38,641 nt of DNA from Thermodesulfobacteriales bacterium (lineage in GTDB: Bacteria > Desulfobacterota > Thermodesulfobacteria > Thermodesulfobacteriales > Thermodesulfatatoraceae), in the NCBI GenBank assembly GCA_026988575.1, contig JALSKZ010000067.1, positions 1-38,641 on the forward strand, given 5' to 3'. The notes below the pieces were generated by a model, which did no database searches, was not told where the DNA came from, and saw only the letters and a list, made by a program, of their open reading frames with translations. Position numbers and translations under genes: made by a program. Shown piece by piece: positions 10,156-19,013 of the stretch (position 1 is its first letter; each line of letters begins with the position of its first letter).

Positions 10156-10953
10156 TTAAGATCCTTCGGTTTTCAAGCGTCGACCAAGCTCCTGAACTTG
10201 GCGAAAAATTTTTAAAAAGGCGTCCATGTCCTTCCGGCGCGCAATCTCGGCTATTTCTTGGGCCAAAGTCAAATATTTCTGGCGCATCTCTTCGCCCTGA
10301 GGATTGGCATATTGAATAGTGCCGTAGAGGTAAGGATCTTGGTCGGCAAAACGACATAATATGTCTATCTGGCGGGCGAAGCTTGGGGTAGCAAGCTCTT
10401 TAACGAGTTCCAAGGGGACCTCTGCCTCGTTAAGCAAACGCCCCAAGGCCAGGAGCATGAAGTGATTGATGACCTGCACAATGGCCATGGTCTTGTCGTG
10501 CTCTTCGGGGTCGACCAAAATGGGTTTGGCCCCCTGGGACAGTAAGAAATCCCAAAACCAGCGGAACCAAAATTGACCTCTAGCAGGCCACAAAGCTACT
10601 TTTTGACCGGCCAAATGCGGCTCTCCCGGGCCAAAAAGGGGATGGGCAGCCACTACTTCACAAGAAGTATGGGCCAACATGACCTCGGTTTCGCGCTTTT
10701 TTAGAGAACAAAAATCTATAAGGGCCTGATCTTTTCTAAGTAAGGGTCCTACTTCTCTGACCAGATCCGCAAAAGTGGACATGGGAACAGAGACAAAAAT
10801 AACCGCACAATCCTGAACCAGGTCTTGGGGTTTAAGGGGGGTGTTAAGGTCAGCCACCAATACCTCGTGGCCGGCCTTCTCAAACGCACGCTTGAACCAA
10901 CGGCCCATCCGCCCCAAGCCACCAATAATACCTATCTGTGGTTTTTGTTGCAT
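10156..10953 (-). CDS. tyrA: Prephenate (or arogenate) dehydrogenase
   Basis: The protein opens with a Rossmann NAD(P) motif, QIGIIGGLGRMGRWF. It continues with VLVADLNTP, VIFVSVPMSTF, the conserved LIDFCSLKK and AAHPLFGPGEPH (the TyrA substrate-binding HPLFGP). VDPEEHDKTMAIVQVINHF matches the helical dimerisation domain. TyrA oxidatively decarboxylates prephenate to 4-hydroxyphenylpyruvate in tyrosine synthesis. There is no fused chorismate mutase or ACT domain. I chose ATG 10953 (265 residues, starting MQQKPQIG); an in-frame TTG at 10974 would add seven residues. It follows the TraB-like gene after about 40 bases on the same strand, so it may be cotranscribed. Confidence 0.9.
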   Translation of the reverse strand: MQQKPQIGIIGGLGRMGRWFKRAFEKAGHEVLVADLNTPLKPQDLVQDCAVIFVSVPMSTFADLVREVGPLLRKDQALIDFCSLKKRETEVMLAHTSCEVVAAHPLFGPGEPHLAGQKVALWPARGQFWFRWFWDFLLSQGAKPILVDPEEHDKTMAIVQVINHFMLLALGRLLNEAEVPLELVKELATPSFARQIDILCRFADQDPYLYGTIQYANPQGEEMRQKYLTLAQEIAEIARRKDMDAFLKIFRQVQELGRRLKTEGS

Positions 10954-10993
10954 ACAGAGGCAGGTTAACCTCAAACCCCTCTCAGGACAAGAT

Positions 10994-12805
10994 TTAATCT
11001 CCTTCTATGTAGTGATGGGCATATAAACGTACGTGGTGTCCTTCTAACACATGGAAAGTCTGGATCTTCTTGAGAAATAGGGGAGAAAATTGCCCTAAAG
11101 GGAGATAGATAATCTTTTTATCCTGACGAGCAGCAAAATTTTTGGCCAAGCCACTAGGAGGCGTTTTGGCAATGTAGACAATATACCTTTCCAGGGAATA
11201 ATCTACAGCAGCCAGCAGGAGACGCTCGGGTTTATTACGGGCGATATCATAAAGAGGATCTTCCCAAATATCCAATACGCGCATGGGGGGGTAGGTGAGC
11301 ATAAATCCCCCGTAATGGCAACGGGATATCCCTGGCCCCACTACTACTTCCCCGGCCCTGGTAGCATAGAAGGCCATATCAGACTCTTGGGAGTGTTCTC
11401 CGTGCCAGGTAAGCTTCCACGGATAACGTTCTTGACCCCTGGCGTCGGGTAAATCTTCGTCAAAGATCACCACCACCGAGCCCACCTTGCCAGAAACTGG
11501 TCGATCTTCTCGTACGTATATGCGTCCTTCATACCAGTGTCTGAGGGTCTCGCGCATATCGATACCGTCTTTCATAGAGGCCAAAAAGGGCTCTACGCGA
11601 CGGAAATCTTCGGCCAAAACCCGTAAGGCCTTTTTCATGACCTGCCGACCAAAACCTTCCACGACCAGGTCTTCAGGGGGAAAAGAACAAATATTGATCC
11701 CCTTCCAGGCATCTTTCCATTCCCCTGGTCTTTTCTCCACCGGCTTCTTACGCAGGGGCCACCAGCGACGACGTTTTTGTTTGAGTTTACGAAAAAGCCT
11801 AATTTTGCGTTGAGGACGATGGAGGTCTTCAAGGCTTAGCCGCAAAGGCATTAAATCGGGCTGCTCCGTCTGAAAGGGGTACCTCGTCCCTATTTCCCAT
11901 ACTTCCCAAGCAAACTCATCGCTTACACTCCCCTTGCTGGCTACCAAAAACTGGTAAAAATCTGGACAAAGTCGCCCCTCAAGCAAGGCATAATTGCGAG
12001 CGAATTGGAACAAAACACGTAGGTAATGGGCTGGTACTTCTTCGCGATTCTTTTCTTTGTGTTGCCTCAAGGCCTCTTGTAAGAGGCGCTGATAAAGTTG
12101 CCAACGATCCAGAAGGGCCTCACCCTTTCCCCGGGCCCTTTCGTAAGCTCCCTGGAAATAGCCAATTTCTGAGAGCACTTCTCTACTGGAGAGGGCATCC
12201 AGATGATACACCTCTACCCCTTCTCTATTCAGACGTTCAAAAGGGCGGGGGAGATCCTCTTGGAGAAACTGGGCAATGGCCTTTATATGAGCGAGCCCGC
12301 CTACAAAAACAATGCGTCGAAAATCACGGCTAAGTCTCTGGAGATGATAAGCAATGGTCCTTTCTCGGTGCACATCCAGGGGAGATTTAGAAAAAGAAAA
12401 CCGTAAGGCTTCCTGACAAAATCGTTCGTAACCAATCTGCGTAAGGGCATAGGAATCGGGAAAGACTTCTTTATAGCCGGGATGCCCCTCTACATCGAGA
12501 TCGACAAAACGCACCGGCACCCCCATTTCGCGGCCTAACCTTACGGCCTCAATCAAGGGCTCAGCCGGTTCAATAAGGAGATAAATTTGACTACCATCGC
12601 GCTCTTTATAACCGACCACCGATAGATAAGGAAGACGTCGGACCCCCCGTTGGATCTTGGGAGTAAGGGTAGAAGGATATTCTACTGCTATGACGTCTGG
12701 GTTCAGGTGGGGTACTTTCTCGTGGACCACAGCCGCGAACTCAAGTTTGCCGTGCAAAATAGGCAATAAAAAGATATCTGCTTTACCGATTTTTAGCTTT
12801 AACAT
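10994..12805 (-). CDS. Large protein with TraB-like N-terminal domain, partner of a MoxR-type ATPase
   Basis: This 603-residue protein is not one I can name. Residues 1 to about 190 resemble the TraB/PrgY/Tiki-like fold: H18 and E22 in an LHGKLEF motif, NPDVIAVEYP with E42, then AYHLQRL and VFVGGLAHIKAI with H173, which match the conserved Gx(2)H/E positions and the late GxGH motif. The middle is helical with a basic patch near 350-370 (KQKRRRWWPLRKK). The C-terminal third, including VVVIFDEDLPDA and YGGFMLTYPPMRVLDIWEDP, looks globular and has no motif I know. It has no signal peptide or membrane segment. It starts 3 bases after the AAA+ gene, so the two products probably act together. Confidence 0.6.
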   Translation of the reverse strand: MLKLKIGKADIFLLPILHGKLEFAAVVHEKVPHLNPDVIAVEYPSTLTPKIQRGVRRLPYLSVVGYKERDGSQIYLLIEPAEPLIEAVRLGREMGVPVRFVDLDVEGHPGYKEVFPDSYALTQIGYERFCQEALRFSFSKSPLDVHRERTIAYHLQRLSRDFRRIVFVGGLAHIKAIAQFLQEDLPRPFERLNREGVEVYHLDALSSREVLSEIGYFQGAYERARGKGEALLDRWQLYQRLLQEALRQHKEKNREEVPAHYLRVLFQFARNYALLEGRLCPDFYQFLVASKGSVSDEFAWEVWEIGTRYPFQTEQPDLMPLRLSLEDLHRPQRKIRLFRKLKQKRRRWWPLRKKPVEKRPGEWKDAWKGINICSFPPEDLVVEGFGRQVMKKALRVLAEDFRRVEPFLASMKDGIDMRETLRHWYEGRIYVREDRPVSGKVGSVVVIFDEDLPDARGQERYPWKLTWHGEHSQESDMAFYATRAGEVVVGPGISRCHYGGFMLTYPPMRVLDIWEDPLYDIARNKPERLLLAAVDYSLERYIVYIAKTPPSGLAKNFAARQDKKIIYLPLGQFSPLFLKKIQTFHVLEGHHVRLYAHHYIEGD

Positions 12806-12808
12806 CCG

Positions 12809-13672
12809 TTAATTCACCGGGTGCAAATGGGAACCACCCTCGGGCCTTTGAGGCCAAAAGAGTAAGGCTCCAGGGCCTAATATCTGGGCAATGGCTGTCT
12901 TTATAATCTCCTTTTTCTCCTCCTCCTTATCCTCACTCCTGAGCATTTTTAGGGCATAGCGTGCAATGTTCACCCCGTCGCGCACCGAAAAAGTCTCTCC
13001 GGCCTTGTGGGCCGTTTGTAAAAAGCGCACCACATACTCTAAGACCTCTTCGTCTCCAAAGGGGAGATTGGCCTTCAAAATAGCCCTTTCCTCCTCTTCA
13101 TCAGGGAAATCCACGTAGATTTGGGGTTGCAAGCGGGAATGGATATATTCAGGCACTTCAAAAGTAGAGGCGTCTTCGTTCATGGTGACACAGATACGAA
13201 AATCAGGATGGGCTTTTATTTTTATCCCGGCCACGATAGATTCGATATATCTCCTGGAATCTAACAAGGGAGCCAATGAGGCCCAACTCTTTTCACTCAT
13301 CCGGTTGGCCTCGTCGATAATGGCCACTCCGCCCTTGATCATAGCGGTTACTATGGGGCTGGCCATATAACGAATACGTCCCTCATCGGAAATTACCGGC
13401 GTGATTAGCAGATCTTCGGGACGCGTGTCTACCGTGGCCTGAAAAATATAGACCTCTTTACCCAGACGCCTGGCCGCCGCATAGGCCAAAGTAGTCTTGC
13501 CCACCCCCGGCTTTCCTACTAAGCGGGGATTAAGGGGGAGATCTCTTTCATCCACCACCATCCAGGCCGCTAAAACTTGACGGATTACTTCCTCTTGCCC
13601 TACACATATCAGAGCTAAATCATCTGGGTGGGCCAGATATAAAGTAACACCTTCTATGTTAATCTTTTCCAT
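12809..13672 (-). CDS. MoxR-type AAA+ ATPase
   Basis: The 287-residue ATPase has Walker A GKPGVGKTT at 53-61, Walker B AIIDEANRM around 117-125, sensor I in TMNED (N165) and an arginine-finger region IHSRLQPQ (R180). The motif FQATVDTRPEDLL matches the MoxR/CbbQ/NorQ group, in which QxTxDTxPEDL is typical. Such ATPases are chaperones that remodel or activate a partner, usually encoded next door and often carrying a VWA domain. Here the partner slot, 3 bases downstream, holds the 603-residue TraB-like protein, and no VWA gene is visible. It is divergent from ysxC with 61 bases between. Confidence 0.88.
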   Translation of the reverse strand: MEKINIEGVTLYLAHPDDLALICVGQEEVIRQVLAAWMVVDERDLPLNPRLVGKPGVGKTTLAYAAARRLGKEVYIFQATVDTRPEDLLITPVISDEGRIRYMASPIVTAMIKGGVAIIDEANRMSEKSWASLAPLLDSRRYIESIVAGIKIKAHPDFRICVTMNEDASTFEVPEYIHSRLQPQIYVDFPDEEEERAILKANLPFGDEEVLEYVVRFLQTAHKAGETFSVRDGVNIARYALKMLRSEDKEEEKKEIIKTAIAQILGPGALLFWPQRPEGGSHLHPVN

Positions 13673-13733
13673 AAAGGCTCCCTCAAAAACAATTTTTCTA
13701 TTATTTTAACGAGAAACCAGCGATAAGGCATCT

Positions 13734-14339
13734 ATGAAGGTGAAGAAACCATTTAAAGAAATATCTTTAACCAAACGCGTCTTTCGGGTCGAAGACCTTC
13801 CGGTGGGCACTCTGCCAGAAATCGCCTTTCTAGGCCGGTCAAACGTGGGCAAATCTTCCCTTATAAACGCCTTTATAGGGCAAAAGCGCTTGGCACGGGT
13901 CTCTTCTCGCCCCGGTTTCACCCAAGCGTTACACTTTTTCCGCGTAGACCATCGCTTCTGGGTGGTAGATTTGCCTGGATACGGCTTTGCCAAGGCCCCT
14001 GCTGATGTGCAAAAGAATTGGTCTCTCTTGATCGAAAAATACCTCACTTCCCCCCGGCCTATCAAACTCTTGATCGTTATCTTTGACCTGCGTCGCAAAC
14101 CAGACGACCTGGATAACCTCTTAATAAACTATATAACACAACAAAGACGACCCTTTGTAATGGTCTTGAACAAGGTGGACCGGGTCAAAAAGACCTCTCG
14201 CCCCCACTACGCCAAAGCGTGGGTTCAGGCCTTTGGCCCTCGCGCACGGCACACCTTTTTGACCTCGTGCCGTACAGGCGAAGGCATAAAGGAGTTCAGA
14301 CATTTTGTATTGCAAGAGATCTTTCCCCAAAAAGGTTAA
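13734..14339 (+). CDS. ysxC: Ribosome biogenesis GTPase YsxC/EngB
   Basis: The 201-residue GTPase shows G1 GRSNVGKSS (34-42), the EngB-typical SSRPGFTQ switch I, G3 DLPGYGFAKA (79-88) and G4 NKVD. The GYGFAKA after DLPG is specific to EngB. It is an essential factor in late 50S subunit assembly. AAGG upstream of the ATG is the likely ribosome-binding site. The stop overlaps the converging diguanylate cyclase gene by 4 bases. Confidence 0.97.
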   Translation: MKVKKPFKEISLTKRVFRVEDLPVGTLPEIAFLGRSNVGKSSLINAFIGQKRLARVSSRPGFTQALHFFRVDHRFWVVDLPGYGFAKAPADVQKNWSLLIEKYLTSPRPIKLLIVIFDLRRKPDDLDNLLINYITQQRRPFVMVLNKVDRVKKTSRPHYAKAWVQAFGPRARHTFLTSCRTGEGIKEFRHFVLQEIFPQKG

Positions 14340-16498
14340 AGAGGAGGGCTGTGTTCGTTTTGGAGAAACTCCTTACGAAAACGCACTACACAATTACGCC
14401 CTCTCGACTTGGCCTGATACAGGGCGATATCGGCATATTTTATCACTTTATCTACATGTTCGTCGTCTTCAGGAAAGATGGCTACCCCTATGGAAACCGT
14501 TATCTTTAAAGGCTGTCCTTCAAAAAACAGGGCCTCTTGGGCCACTCGTTCACGAATACGTTCCGCCGCGGCCTCGGTACCCTTGGGTGTAGAATCAGGG
14601 AGCAAGAGCAAGAACTCCTCTCCCCCATAGCGCACGGGTAAATCGCTTTTGCGCAAGATTTCACGTACAATCTGGGCCACCCTTGCCAGCACACGATCGC
14701 CAAAACTGTGTCCATAGGTATCGTTTACCAACTTAAAATGGTCTAAATCGAGCATCATAACCCCCATAAGGGTCCCCCGACGACGCACCCCCGCCTCTAA
14801 TTGGGGTAATAAATCATCTAATACCCTCCTGTTGTAGAGGCCTGTAAGGGGGTCGCGTAAAGACATCTCTTTGAGGCTTCGGGCAAAGCGCTTGGCCTCC
14901 AGAATGGGAGCGGCCTCGTTTAAATAGGCCACAATTTGGTCAATCTTGGTCTTTTTTATCTCTAAATCGTTTTCTTTAGATAACAAGAAGTGAACTACTG
15001 CAATCACTTTCCCGTTGGTTATTAAGGGCAGACAAATATAGTCGGCATCACTTTCTTTAAAGAATTCGCAACTTTCTGTAAAATGAAAAGAAGAAGCCTG
15101 TTTAGCACTCCTCACCACTCTACAAGAAGCAGCATTAAATTTAGGAGAATGACAAACTAAAAAATTAACTACCTCTTTAGGTTCCGCTATTTTAAGAACC
15201 ATTTGATTTTTACTATTAGAAATTTCATAAATAGCAAAATTAAATAGACCAAATTTTTCTTTAAAAAGACAAGATAGGCGATAATATACCGTATCGGGAT
15301 CTGGATCTATTTCTATAGCTTGTCTGAAAGACGACAATTCATCAAGCTCATATATCAAATTATTCACACTATTAGCCAATCTTACAATCTCTTTAGAGCC
15401 ATTTATATGGAAAAACCTTTTTTCTACTCTCTCGCGAAGCTTCTTACCTACAGTAAGAGCAAGTGCGTCTATTTCTTCTTTCATTCTACTCAAAGGAAAA
15501 ACAACTCCTAAACGAACAACAAAAGAAATGACCAAAAGAGACATAAAAAGAAAGAAAAAGGCGGGCAATATATTCTGTTTTAAAAGCATTTTTTTGTCTT
15601 TATTTAGGAAGTAAAGATCGTGTAATCGCACGTAAACTCCTACTTTTTTCCCTGCATAATCGATTAGAGGTATACCTACTACGGCATGGGGTTTATCTTC
15701 GGAACCTTCTTCTATGATGACCGTGGGTTTCTTTAAGGACTGTTGCAAAAAAGAAAGGGATAAACGGATATCTTCATGCTCAGAAGGGGCTTTAAGCTCA
15801 ATAAAAGGACCTATACGGGGATAATGAGTAAATTTGGGGTAATTATTCTGGACAATGACGAAAACACCTGGCGTCTCCTCTTCTTCAAAGGTCAGGTGGC
15901 TTATGAAATCTTTTAACAGACAAAAGACCTCCACGCTGCCCAGAAGTCTCTTGTGATCATCGAATATAGGGCTAATGCCTCTTAGGGCAAGCCCTACCCG
16001 CCCCAATTCTAAACCCCAGGCCGGCTTCATGGTACTCAAAACCGAAGCCACCATGGGACGATATTTAGTAAGATCCTCATCGACGTGAAGGTTTGGGGCC
16101 CACACACGCAAAAAAGACCGGCCTGGCGGCACATGAAAGTGAATAAATAAGGGATAAGGCCCCTCTTCATTTAAGACCTCATAGAGGGGCAAAATGGCCT
16201 GCAAAAGATATTTTCTATCCCTTCGGGCCAAGGCCTCTTTGACTTCTGGCAAATGGGCAAACAGACAGGCCAACCGGAGATTGGCCCGCGCCTTTTTTTG
16301 AAAGAGACTAATATCGTAAGAGGTCTTGGAAAGGGCCTCCTCGATCTTTATCTCTTTTTTTAGTTTTAGCCCCCTATAAGCCAACCAACTGGAAAACAAA
16401 AAGGCACAAATACAGAGGACGATAACCGGCAGGAGAATGAGTAAACAAAGGGGGAGGTGGCTTAAATTAAAAAAAGAATAGTATTTTCCCCTATTCAT
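14336..16498 (-). CDS. Membrane diguanylate cyclase with periplasmic double-Cache sensor
   Basis: The order is a membrane segment (about 18-40), a periplasmic region resembling dCache_3 (FIHFHVPPGRSFLRVWAPN, ELGRVGLALRGISPIFDD, LLGSVEVF), a second membrane segment near 311-335, a HAMP-like stretch, a probable GAF domain around 390-520 and a C-terminal GGDEF domain. The active site is intact: GGEEF at 627-631 (numbered from the upstream TTG), with the RxxD inhibitory site RKSD at 618-621. It should make c-di-GMP in response to a periplasmic ligand and be feedback inhibited; pilus function is a plausible output. The TTG at 16504 is in frame, but ATG 16498 is preferred. The GAF part is clearly more AT-rich than the rest. 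Confidence 0.92.
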   Translation of the reverse strand: MNRGKYYSFFNLSHLPLCLLILLPVIVLCICAFLFSSWLAYRGLKLKKEIKIEEALSKTSYDISLFQKKARANLRLACLFAHLPEVKEALARRDRKYLLQAILPLYEVLNEEGPYPLFIHFHVPPGRSFLRVWAPNLHVDEDLTKYRPMVASVLSTMKPAWGLELGRVGLALRGISPIFDDHKRLLGSVEVFCLLKDFISHLTFEEEETPGVFVIVQNNYPKFTHYPRIGPFIELKAPSEHEDIRLSLSFLQQSLKKPTVIIEEGSEDKPHAVVGIPLIDYAGKKVGVYVRLHDLYFLNKDKKMLLKQNILPAFFFLFMSLLVISFVVRLGVVFPLSRMKEEIDALALTVGKKLRERVEKRFFHINGSKEIVRLANSVNNLIYELDELSSFRQAIEIDPDPDTVYYRLSCLFKEKFGLFNFAIYEISNSKNQMVLKIAEPKEVVNFLVCHSPKFNAASCRVVRSAKQASSFHFTESCEFFKESDADYICLPLITNGKVIAVVHFLLSKENDLEIKKTKIDQIVAYLNEAAPILEAKRFARSLKEMSLRDPLTGLYNRRVLDDLLPQLEAGVRRRGTLMGVMMLDLDHFKLVNDTYGHSFGDRVLARVAQIVREILRKSDLPVRYGGEEFLLLLPDSTPKGTEAAAERIRERVAQEALFFEGQPLKITVSIGVAIFPEDDEHVDKVIKYADIALYQAKSRGRNCVVRFRKEFLQNEHSPPL

Positions 16499-16583
16499 AA
16501 CCAAAATTATTTATCGGACACTGGGGAAAATAATTTAAACTTATGGCAAGGAGACTAGGGGGCGAGATAAATAAGCTAAAGAT

Positions 16584-16620
16584 AAGAAGAAGCCCCTTTT
16601 CTCAAAAGGGGCTTCTTCTT
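16584..16620 (-). terminator. Strong rho-independent-type hairpin after the redox operon
   Basis: Two 17-base arms, 16584-16600 and 16604-16620, are perfectly complementary around a 3-base loop. The hairpin touches the stop codon of the NrfD gene. Read on the minus strand it ends in CTTCTTCTT followed by ATCTTT, a weak U-rich tail. It should end transcription before the diguanylate cyclase gene. Confidence 0.8.
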
Positions 16621-17827
16621 AGTGTTTTGCTATGTGTCCCTTAAAAAGGTGTTCACCAGCTACGAAACCAAAGCAGATAAGTCCTAAAGCACCCAAAAAT
16701 ACGAGGAACTCGGAGACCGAAGGGACATAGGGGTAAAACTTGGTGGCCAATTCAGCTGGCGCCACCACGTTAAATTGCTGGTAGTGAGGGATGGTTTGCG
16801 GCACTACGATGAGATCATAGCGATTTATAAAACCGCCTATCATAGCCGACAACCCGGCCCAGGCCATGGCCGAAATTTCTCTACCCTTATACACGATAGC
16901 CGCTATCAAGGGGACTAAAATACCCAAGACCACCTCAAAAAACCAGAAATTTAAGGCATAGGGCCCGGCCACCAGGGCCTTGGCCGTATCGTATTGACCA
17001 AAAACCTTTCCCGCTAAGGCGTTTACGATCCACCAGGATAGTAAAAAGAGTACTAAGGCCGCAAAGAGCCCTATAAATTTTCCGGCTGTTTTCAAAGCCT
17101 TTTGTAAGGGTTCGTCCATCTCCCAACCAAACATAGAATAGGCGGCCCAGGTAAAAAATACTATGGCCGAAAAGCCCATTAGACAGGCATTGGAAATAAA
17201 ATAAATAGAAAGGAAAGGTCCATACCAATAGGGCTTGGCATTGATGAATCCAAAGACCTCACCCAAATTACTGTTGGCCAGGATGTCGGTAATGAGACCT
17301 ACAAGCCCCGCTACCGAAGCTACAGAAGCCAGCCCCGCGGCTACGGCCGCAGCCTTACGCTGTGCTAATTGTCCCAAGACGAACTCTACAATCATGAGCA
17401 CTACTGCTACCGCGTAAAAAAGCCCCATCCACATGATGTTGGAGGTGAGGTTAGGAGACAGGACCATCCATATGGCCATACGCCAGGGATTTTCAAGCTC
17501 CAACCCAATGGCCAAAAAAGCCGCTAAAATGGCAATTATGGCCATATAAAGGGCCCTTTGCGACAAAGGCTCCAAGGTTTTGGCCTTGAATAAGTGTCCA
17601 ATGGCCGCTACTATGCACAGCCCCGTGGAAATAATGGCAAACGAAGCATAGGTTACGATCAGTAACCCCCACGGCACTTCCCTGGTTACACCATATAATA
17701 AGTGGTGTCCTAGATAAAAAGATAAAAGACCAGTGGTTATACCTAGAAGTAATGCTCCTCCCCCCAATACGTAAAATAACGCGATGATTTTGTTTTTTGG
17801 TGGGTTTATCTGTTTGAGGGCAGTCAT
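16619..17827 (-). CDS. NrfD-family membrane quinone oxidoreductase subunit
   Basis: The 402-residue protein is almost all membrane helices (about ten) and has an NrfD/PsrC-like look: TREVPWGLLIVTYASFAI, LENPWRMAIWMVLSPN, then VPLIAAIVYKGREISAMAWA. NrfD proteins bind menaquinone and partner with a four-cluster Fe-S subunit in complexes such as Hmc, Qrc, Dsr and Psr. It is the last gene of a four-gene operon, 12 bases after the triheme cytochrome, with an AAGGAGG ribosome-binding site. No molybdopterin subunit accompanies it, so electrons probably pass between the quinone pool and cytochromes. Which named complex it belongs to cannot be settled by eye. Confidence 0.85.
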   Translation of the reverse strand: MTALKQINPPKNKIIALFYVLGGGALLLGITTGLLSFYLGHHLLYGVTREVPWGLLIVTYASFAIISTGLCIVAAIGHLFKAKTLEPLSQRALYMAIIAILAAFLAIGLELENPWRMAIWMVLSPNLTSNIMWMGLFYAVAVVLMIVEFVLGQLAQRKAAAVAAGLASVASVAGLVGLITDILANSNLGEVFGFINAKPYWYGPFLSIYFISNACLMGFSAIVFFTWAAYSMFGWEMDEPLQKALKTAGKFIGLFAALVLFLLSWWIVNALAGKVFGQYDTAKALVAGPYALNFWFFEVVLGILVPLIAAIVYKGREISAMAWAGLSAMIGGFINRYDLIVVPQTIPHYQQFNVVAPAELATKFYPYVPSVSEFLVFLGALGLICFGFVAGEHLFKGHIAKH

Positions 17828-17839
17828 AAAAAAACCTCC

Positions 17840-18229
17840 TTAGTGGTGCACCTCTTCTTTGATGCCAAGAATCCTTTTCATACCCAAAACCCCTATGTGA
17901 CAGCGAGCACATTGCGTGTTGGAGGCAAAGGCCGTATCTCCATCGTGACAAGCACCACAATATTGTCCATCATAGAGGGCCTTCATGTTGAAATCTGGTT
18001 TTTCTTGGGTAGAGCCTGCTTCCATCTCAAAGGGATCATCGTGACATGAATCACAACTAAGGCCATTATCTTCCACGTGTACTTTGTGATCAAAGATAAC
18101 TGCCTTTACCGGTTTGGTGAAAATTATAGGTTCTTGGGGATAATCCTCCTCGTCTTGTGACCAGGTAGGAGGATGAATCAAGAGACACCCCAAGAAAACG
18201 GCCAGCAAAAAAATAAAATAGCGCTTCAT
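17840..18229 (-). CDS. Periplasmic triheme c-type cytochrome
   Basis: The 129-residue protein has a signal sequence (hydrophobic 5-20, cleavage probably near TWSQ) and three CXXCH haem sites at 59-63, 91-95 and 107-111. The spacing, with FDHKVHV before the first haem and QYCGACHDG before the second, resembles the c7/c3-type cytochromes that accompany NrfD/Fe-S modules. Three haems also recalls DsrJ, but the sequence around the haems does not look like it to me. The gene sits between the Fe-S and NrfD genes, 16 bases after the former, with a strong AGGAGG site. It is expected to carry electrons on the periplasmic face. Confidence 0.85.
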   Translation of the reverse strand: MKRYFIFLLAVFLGCLLIHPPTWSQDEEDYPQEPIIFTKPVKAVIFDHKVHVEDNGLSCDSCHDDPFEMEAGSTQEKPDFNMKALYDGQYCGACHDGDTAFASNTQCARCHIGVLGMKRILGIKEEVHH

Positions 18230-18245
18230 AGGAAAGACCTCCTAA

Positions 18246-19013
18246 TTAGCCCTTTGTATAGAATACATTTGGTCTAGCCCCGGTTTCAGGACGAAGGACC
18301 CATACCACCCTTGTCTCACTGTGTACCATCTGGAATACTTCTGATTCTGGATCCGAAAGATCGCCAAAAATACGTACGCCAGCAGGACAAGCCTCAGCAC
18401 AAGCAGTAAGCTTCTTTCCTTTGGAAAGACGGCTTTCCCAGCAAAAATCGCATTTGTCCACCGCTCTCTTCTCTTCGTTGAAATAGCGCATGTCATAGGG
18501 GCAGGCCACCATACACGTCTTACACCCTATACATTTTCGATAATCCATACGCACAATTCCCGTACGGCTATCTTTATATGTGGCCTGGGTAGGACAAGCG
18601 CGTACACAGGGTGGATTATTGCAGTGATTACACAAAATGGGCATAAATTCTCTATACCATTCCCCTTCCCCCAAAGGTATGTGCCGTTCTAGGATCTTGG
18701 TCCGCCAACCATATTCAGGTACATGGTTAGTCCGACGACAGGCCTCCATACAGCGTTCGCAGTCGATACAACGATCTACCCGTAAGACCATAGCGTAGTG
18801 GGGTTTGTAAGGATAGCGTTCTGAATATCCCCCTATGGAACCAAATACGTCATCTACTTTGGAAACAAGAGAAAGGAGAGTGCCCCCGGCAAAGACCCCG
18901 GTGATTGTAAGTCCCATTTTTAAAAAACGTCGTCTTTCCTCAGAGGGGAGATTCTCCACCCCTTCGTTTTTGTCTTCTAAGCTATCAAGCCATTGACTAA
19001 ATTTCTTGAACAT
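18246..19013 (-). CDS. Tat-exported four-cluster Fe-S protein of an NrfD complex
   Basis: The 255-residue protein has a twin-arginine signal (RRRFLKMG at 28-35 followed by a hydrophobic stretch). Sixteen cysteines form four [4Fe-4S] sites: C82/85/88/92, C128/131/136/140, C161/164/167/171 and C188/191/205/209. This is the DmsB/PsrB/HmcB/QrcC arrangement, in which the protein relays electrons between a quinone-reacting NrfD subunit and a partner. The Tat signal places it in the periplasm. It is the second gene of the operon, after cytochrome c3, and tatB-tatC lie less than 1 kb upstream on the same strand. A GGGGGAGG ribosome-binding site precedes the ATG. Confidence 0.9.
   Translation of the reverse strand: MFKKFSQWLDSLEDKNEGVENLPSEERRRFLKMGLTITGVFAGGTLLSLVSKVDDVFGSIGGYSERYPYKPHYAMVLRVDRCIDCERCMEACRRTNHVPEYGWRTKILERHIPLGEGEWYREFMPILCNHCNNPPCVRACPTQATYKDSRTGIVRMDYRKCIGCKTCMVACPYDMRYFNEEKRAVDKCDFCWESRLSKGKKLTACAEACPAGVRIFGDLSDPESEVFQMVHSETRVVWVLRPETGARPNVFYTKG

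Follow-up and report, generated by a model that had tools for sequence, protein, structure and literature searches.

A MoxR-clade ATPase gene co-inherited with a gene for a predicted TraB-fold partner that carries a strongly conserved, uncharacterised C-terminal domain

Results

Gene layout of the pair

In the window (the whole 38,641-nucleotide stretch analysed, contig JALSKZ010000067.1 of a Thermodesulfobacteriales bacterium), a gene for an AAA+ ATPase is followed on the same strand by one for a larger partner protein (Table 1). The ATPase gene opens with an ATG at 13672 and its TAA ends at 12809, while the partner ATG lies at 12805. A sequence-only reading of this DNA had described two genes 3 bases apart, the first with full AAA+ motifs, and the coordinates, the CGG spacer and the motifs in 88 relatives agree with that description. 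The pair occurs as a single copy in its genome, and the genes around it are housekeeping genes. A prephenate dehydrogenase-like (TyrA) gene (window 10156-10974, same strand) begins 20 bases past the partner gene, and in some relatives a gene of ~100 amino acids lies between these two; a link to tyrosine biosynthesis was rejected because TyrA is downstream in only 7 loci. On the other side, an EngB-like GTPase gene (window 13734-14339, plus strand) lies between the pair and a nearby dCache-GGDEF diguanylate cyclase gene (window 14336-16504, the pair's strand), and genes for an NrfD-type membrane subunit and a 4Fe-4S protein (window 16619-19013) probably form a respiratory module.

Table 1 Features of the gene pair in the window
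Feature	Position	Strand	Basis or remark
Likely ribosome-binding site for ATPase gene, GAGGGAG	13678..13684	-	Sequence
MoxR-clade AAA+ ATPase gene, 287 aa, first in pair	12809..13672	-	Pfam, nearest structures, motif conservation
Walker A GKPGVGKT, ATPase residues 53-60	13493..13516	-	Near-invariant in 88 relatives
Walker B IIDE, ATPase residues 118-121	13310..13321	-	D120/E121 near-invariant in 88 relatives
Spacer between ATPase and partner genes, 3 bases, CGG	12806..12808	-	Sequence
Partner gene, 603 aa: TraB-like domain, helical region, linker and conserved C-terminal domain	10994..12805	-	
Predicted TraB/TIKI-fold domain, residues 1-190 (H18, E22, E42, R89, D102, H173)	12236..12805	-	Foldseek, hhalign
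Helical region, residues ~203-327	11825..12199	-	AlphaFold2 model
Basic, poorly ordered linker, residues ~328-371	11693..11824	-	pLDDT mostly <50
Uncharacterised C-terminal domain, residues 372-603	10997..11692	-	Most conserved part of partner

Assignment of the ATPase

Judged from its intact core motifs and its similarity to MoxR-type models, the ATPase is a member of the MoxR clade of AAA+ proteins. Sensor-1 N165 and the arginine-finger-like R180 are all but invariant among the 88 relatives, the Pfam matches are AAA_5 (1.4e-18) and AAA_3 (3.2e-8; 34 bits, cut-off 27), and the closest solved structures in the PDB are the AAA part of Midasin (E 1e-26), CbbQ and NorQ. Membership of the YehL subfamily finds no backing: a YehL-type HMM does not pick up the ATPase, not even at E 100, and BLASTP against YehL gives 23% identity at E 0.025. 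Identity as GvpN was also rejected (37.1 bits against an NCBIfam equivalog cut-off of 266.8). Among PADLOC models, the ATPase has weak general AAA matches alone and the partner is unmatched. As the sequence-only reading had remarked, no VWA partner is recognisable in the window, and no VWA gene is conserved near the pair among ~120 loci. For MoxR ATPases in general, a gene for a VWA-domain cofactor close by is the rule, though not without exceptions.

Conservation and co-inheritance

Comparison across genomes shows the pair to be a genuine module whose two genes are strictly inherited together. A neighbourhood search, proposed earlier as a test of the pairing, found the two genes conserved as neighbours, with the ATPase gene upstream of the partner, on the same strand and at most three genes away in 104 of ~120 loci, which are not all independent since some genomes were entered twice. 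The genes are directly adjacent in 98 loci, where they usually overlap or lie a few bases apart. There is no third conserved neighbour, the next commonest family being near only 18 of the 120 loci.

A partner homologue is present in 50 of 148 related genomes. Phylum-wide (395 genomes), the partner occurs in 66, the ATPase in 65 and both in 64, against ~11 shared genomes expected by chance. Two of the three mismatches (G401 and G431) are decayed partner remnants in genomes lacking the ATPase (L258:3541-4316 and L260:5367-6332), and the third (G395) is a divergent pair, with the ATPase immediately before a partner that fell below the search threshold (L259:2-3073, the partner running off the contig start). 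In eight genomes in which the ATPase had not been seen beside the partner it is encoded elsewhere in the genome, or, in one of them (G115), is in fact adjacent. Ten sampled genomes without the partner also lack the ATPase, and a mirror-tree comparison of partner and ATPase distance matrices gives r = 0.90 (36 loci).

The genes are inherited jointly in many sulfate-reducer-type bacteria, cultured thermophiles among them (Thermodesulfatator, Thermosulfurimonas), and are also found in Omnitrophota and on a Neochlamydia plasmid (Chlamydiota). Because the pairing is conserved across families, across phyla and on a Chlamydiota plasmid, it is not due to chance. The plasmid, pS13 (231 kb), carries an intact pair at L031:6127-9830, and a TtcA-type gene for tRNA thiolation lies just ahead of it; this is a single case, and a link to tRNA thiolation was rejected. 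A single-protein scan of genome contigs gave no match, and an alignment query of genome contigs returned at least 569 matching stretches, with two patterns per locus, so there are probably several hundred loci. A phage origin was set aside (no match among phages; 2 contigs in IMG/VR), as was recoding, since the in-frame stops in some matches (L098, L108, L016 and others) look like the normal stop at the end of the gene, which the alignment ran past.

Anatomy of the partner protein

The whole partner has no assignment in Pfam, NCBIfam or PADLOC and no PDB relative by sequence. An AlphaFold2 model built with 51 relatives predicts residues 1-190 confidently (pLDDT mostly >85) and the C-terminal domain moderately. 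As modelled, residues 1-190 have a TraB/TIKI fold: the best viral match is a TraB family protein of Marseillevirus LCMAC201 (Foldseek E 5e-6, probability 1.00), and in the PDB ChaN (2g5g), a member of the TraB superfamily, is matched weakly (Foldseek E 0.27). The sequence-only reading had proposed a TraB/Tiki-like N-terminus with H18, E22, E42 and H173, and had named a fold unrelated to TraB as the finding that would speak against it; the residues are present and the fold search returned TraB. Structure prediction and fold search, suggested for both ends of the protein, thus succeeded for residues 1-190 and gave no significant fold match for the C-terminal domain.

The N-terminus is also homologous to DUF5682/YehM (hhalign E 2e-11 to 6e-11 against nine DUF5682 proteins), which makes YehM/DUF5682 beside YehL-type ATPases the concrete counterpart to the earlier statement that TraB-fold partners occur at some other MoxR loci. 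The signal is confined to partner residues ~9-190 (hhalign E 1.1e-11; best decoy 0.017), and the helical part compared alone is not significant (hhalign E 0.08). The conserved HH, EGP, D, RE and GxxH of DUF5682 align with partner H18, E42, D102, R147-E148 and H173. The window partner does not match the DUF5682 Pfam model (PF18934); 18 of 27 relatives match its N-terminus, mostly weakly (best 5.4e-10), and one relative scores 38.7 bits against a cut-off of 26, its best stretch spanning only model positions 1-79 of 727.

All four residues, H18, E22, E42 and H173, are kept in 41 of 56 relatives as well as in the window partner. One whole genus in the window's order has lost H18, E42 and H173; H18 and H173 are gone from two genomes belonging to another family, and E42 from two Omnitrophota genomes. 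These losses amount to at least three changes on the tree, with well-supported branches forcing three, and the lineages without TraB active-site residues have kept both the ATPase and the C-terminal domain. The putative TraB hydrolase site is thus not the indispensable function.

A strongly conserved C-terminal domain

By alignment, the strongest constraint in the partner is on residues 372-603, and the TraB fold is its less conserved half (mean pairwise identity 0.57 for the C-terminal domain vs 0.36 for the TraB part). The domain in the window contains CSFPPED, DGIDxRET, VVVIFDED, WHGEHSQESDMAFY, GPGI, YGGFMLTYPP and FHVL, and the corresponding family motifs are CS(Y/F)PPED, DGIDxRETxR, VVVIFDED, TWxGEHxQESDMAFY, GPGI, YGGFxLxYPPxR and FHVL. 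C373, E378, D379, D451, E470, H471, E474, D476, E527 and H585 are all identical in 51 of 56 members, and ~60 residues of the domain are invariant or near-invariant among divergent members. Divergent members do not retain all of D451, D476 and E527, so that, of the residues checked, H585 alone survives throughout. Two divergent partners (those of G395 and G167) have GI(D/H)xKxTLxAxARGEQxLYV in common.

Folded alone, the domain reaches a pLDDT of 75 and a pTM of 0.70. No relatives were found in Pfam (74 members), in the PDB by profile or in the PDB by fold (best E 0.19, not significant), and there is no kinship between the C-terminal half and DUF5682 (E 0.37). The earlier admission that this part could not be assigned therefore holds across Pfam, NCBIfam, PADLOC, the PDB and Foldseek.

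By eye, DGID-RETIRxWxEGxIYV...VVVIFDED resembles the stretch before the VWA of YehP (DFKRTLRANLRHWHP...LYIE...IILLIDQSGSM). Compared with YehP, the domain scores hhalign E 0.02-0.3, and decoy families score as well; against the YehP VWA in the decoy comparison it scores E 0.02-0.05, rank 3-7 among ~60 decoys. The partner sequence has a strand-1-like VVVIFDED and lacks a MIDAS DxSxS, and no VWA folds are among the best Foldseek matches of the domain, none of which is significant. These comparisons lend no support to a derived VWA, though the domain may still be one. An RNase H/PIWI-like domain was likewise considered, given several weak Foldseek matches (short Argonautes, RNase H3 and UvrC; E 0.19-1.4) and a beta-beta-beta-alpha-beta-alpha-beta order of secondary structure, and these signs were discounted as evidence because divergent members do not retain D451 and E527.

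Discussion

MoxR ATPases have been described as chaperones with a client-binding VWA cofactor (PMC7159879, PMC3893208), and according to a report cited in PMC11432383 the VWA of NorQ/NorD plugs the ring. By the same logic, and with about even confidence, we suggest that both genes encode one MoxR-ATPase/cofactor remodelling machine. The 287-residue ATPase would form a ring on which the 603-residue partner docks while holding a client protein or complex, and ATP hydrolysis would remodel that client, either maturing or disassembling it. The TraB/TIKI-fold domain could serve as a client-binding head, perhaps once hydrolytic, of a kind common to the YehM/DUF5682 partners of YehL-type ATPases, and the C-terminal domain would couple to the ATPase, the job that VWA does in other MoxR systems. 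Adjacency, co-occurrence, the mirror-tree result, the intact ATPase motifs, the TraB fold and the DUF5682 kinship count in favour of such a machine. A more specific form, which we hold somewhat short of evenly, is a MoxR machine independent of VWA, in which residues 372-603 would be either a new MoxR-coupling module or a VWA derived past detection and the TraB head is perhaps dispensable as an enzyme.

Counted against the remodelling machine are the many invariant polar residues of the C-terminal domain, which number in the dozens (C373, E378, D379, D451, E470, E474 and H585 among them) and could equally mean an enzyme. The C-terminal domain would then be a new enzyme, with the ATPase as its activase and the TraB domain as an accessory. 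Many of the ~60 invariant or near-invariant residues are catalytic in type, and activating a metalloenzyme is a common role of MoxR ATPases (PMC3893208); nevertheless, we consider this unlikely, as no fold or sequence link ties the domain to any enzyme and, apart from H585, its candidate residues are unevenly kept in the divergent members.

The sequence-only reading had proposed that the ATPase activates or disassembles the TraB-like protein, perhaps a metalloprotease or esterase-like enzyme. In an ATPase-gated hydrolase of this kind, the TraB/TIKI domain would act as protease or esterase through H18/E42/H173, and the ATPase would activate it or supply its substrate. TIKI enzymes do work with a 2His/2Glu site (PMC6254334), the window partner has the predicted fold, and the four residues are present in it and in most relatives. 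However, the repeated loss of those residues from lineages that still have the pair and the C-terminal domain favours the remodelling machine over an ATPase-activated hydrolase, and evolution has been faster in the TraB part than in the C-terminal domain; we now regard the proposal as improbable.

We give a similarly low probability to a role in defence (conflict) like that of the MoxR-VWA ternary systems, which draws on the many plasmids that carry DUF5682 loci and on a divergent pair (G167, L246:6052-9304) set among ThsB-type TIR, SLATT, TIR-NB-ARC and SLOG/TIR genes, but sits poorly with a main family that is mostly single copy and whose tree order follows taxonomy, with housekeeping neighbours in the window and no conserved neighbour family, and with a partner that fits no PADLOC model. 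That divergent pair has a ThsB-like TIR gene directly upstream and a TPR protein gene directly downstream, and its island (L246:435-15278) encodes a SLATT protein, an AAA-RyR protein and SLOG/TIR and TIR-NB-ARC genes; since it is of conflict type, a role in conflict is possible for one distant branch.

In the prevailing view, MoxR ATPases act together with VWA cofactors, and here a widespread, obligate MoxR pair comes without a recognisable VWA. The most interesting part is the partner's very strongly conserved domain, which no library searched names; if the VWA-independent form holds, there would be a second kind of dedicated cofactor for MoxR ATPases. The pair is also a small counterpart, of two genes only, to the unexplained YehLMPQ type, in which the contributions of the TraB fold and the ATPase clutch could be studied apart from each other, and relatives that lack the TraB active site occur naturally.

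Comparison with known systems

In E. coli, the related gene set comprises yehL (MoxR), yehM (DUF5682), yehP (VWA) and yehQ (SWIM), and we found no established function for YehLMPQ. At seven plasmid loci from four phyla, an AAA ATPase gene precedes DUF5682, either directly or with one small gene between them, and VWA, SWIM and DUF5691 or DUF4132 genes are present at most of these loci. On a Streptomyces plasmid (L176:4947-8720), the gene next after that for a MoxR-type ATPase encodes a DUF5682 protein that ends in a fused VWA domain (DVSGSM). A genome (G236) congeneric with a pair-bearing one has a yehLMPQ-like set. Like YehLMPQ and the SWIM-DUF5691-MoxR-DUF5682-VWA loci, the present pair has a MoxR ATPase gene and then a protein with a TraB-like N-terminus. 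Unlike them, it has no VWA, SWIM, DUF5691 or DUF4132 genes, its ATPase lies outside the YehL subfamily and its partner's C-terminal half is not related to DUF5682, and for these reasons it is not a YehLMPQ system. It appears to be an undescribed variant resembling part of yehLMPQ; a literature search found no paper naming DUF5682 or a MoxR-TraB pair of the present kind, which is weak evidence given that most subscription journals fell outside it.

The fold of residues 1-190 and its His/Glu positions are shared with the TraB/PrgY/GumN, TIKI and EreA/ChaN superfamily, from which the partner differs in that the domain is joined to a helical region and to a C-terminal domain of a unique kind, is tied to an ATPase and can dispense with its putative active-site residues in some lineages. 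The VMAP/MoxR-vWA ternary conflict systems (PMC7159879) likewise combine a MoxR ATPase with a multidomain partner, and one divergent branch of the pair lies in a TIR-rich island, but the pair lacks vWA, VMAP and effector genes and its main family is vertically inherited. Lastly, as in NorQ/NorD, CbbQ/CbbO, RavA/ViaA, CoxD/CoxE and Midasin, a MoxR-clade ATPase is joined to an obligate neighbouring cofactor, which here, unlike in the MoxR/VWA couples, has neither a MIDAS DxSxS nor a detectable VWA domain.
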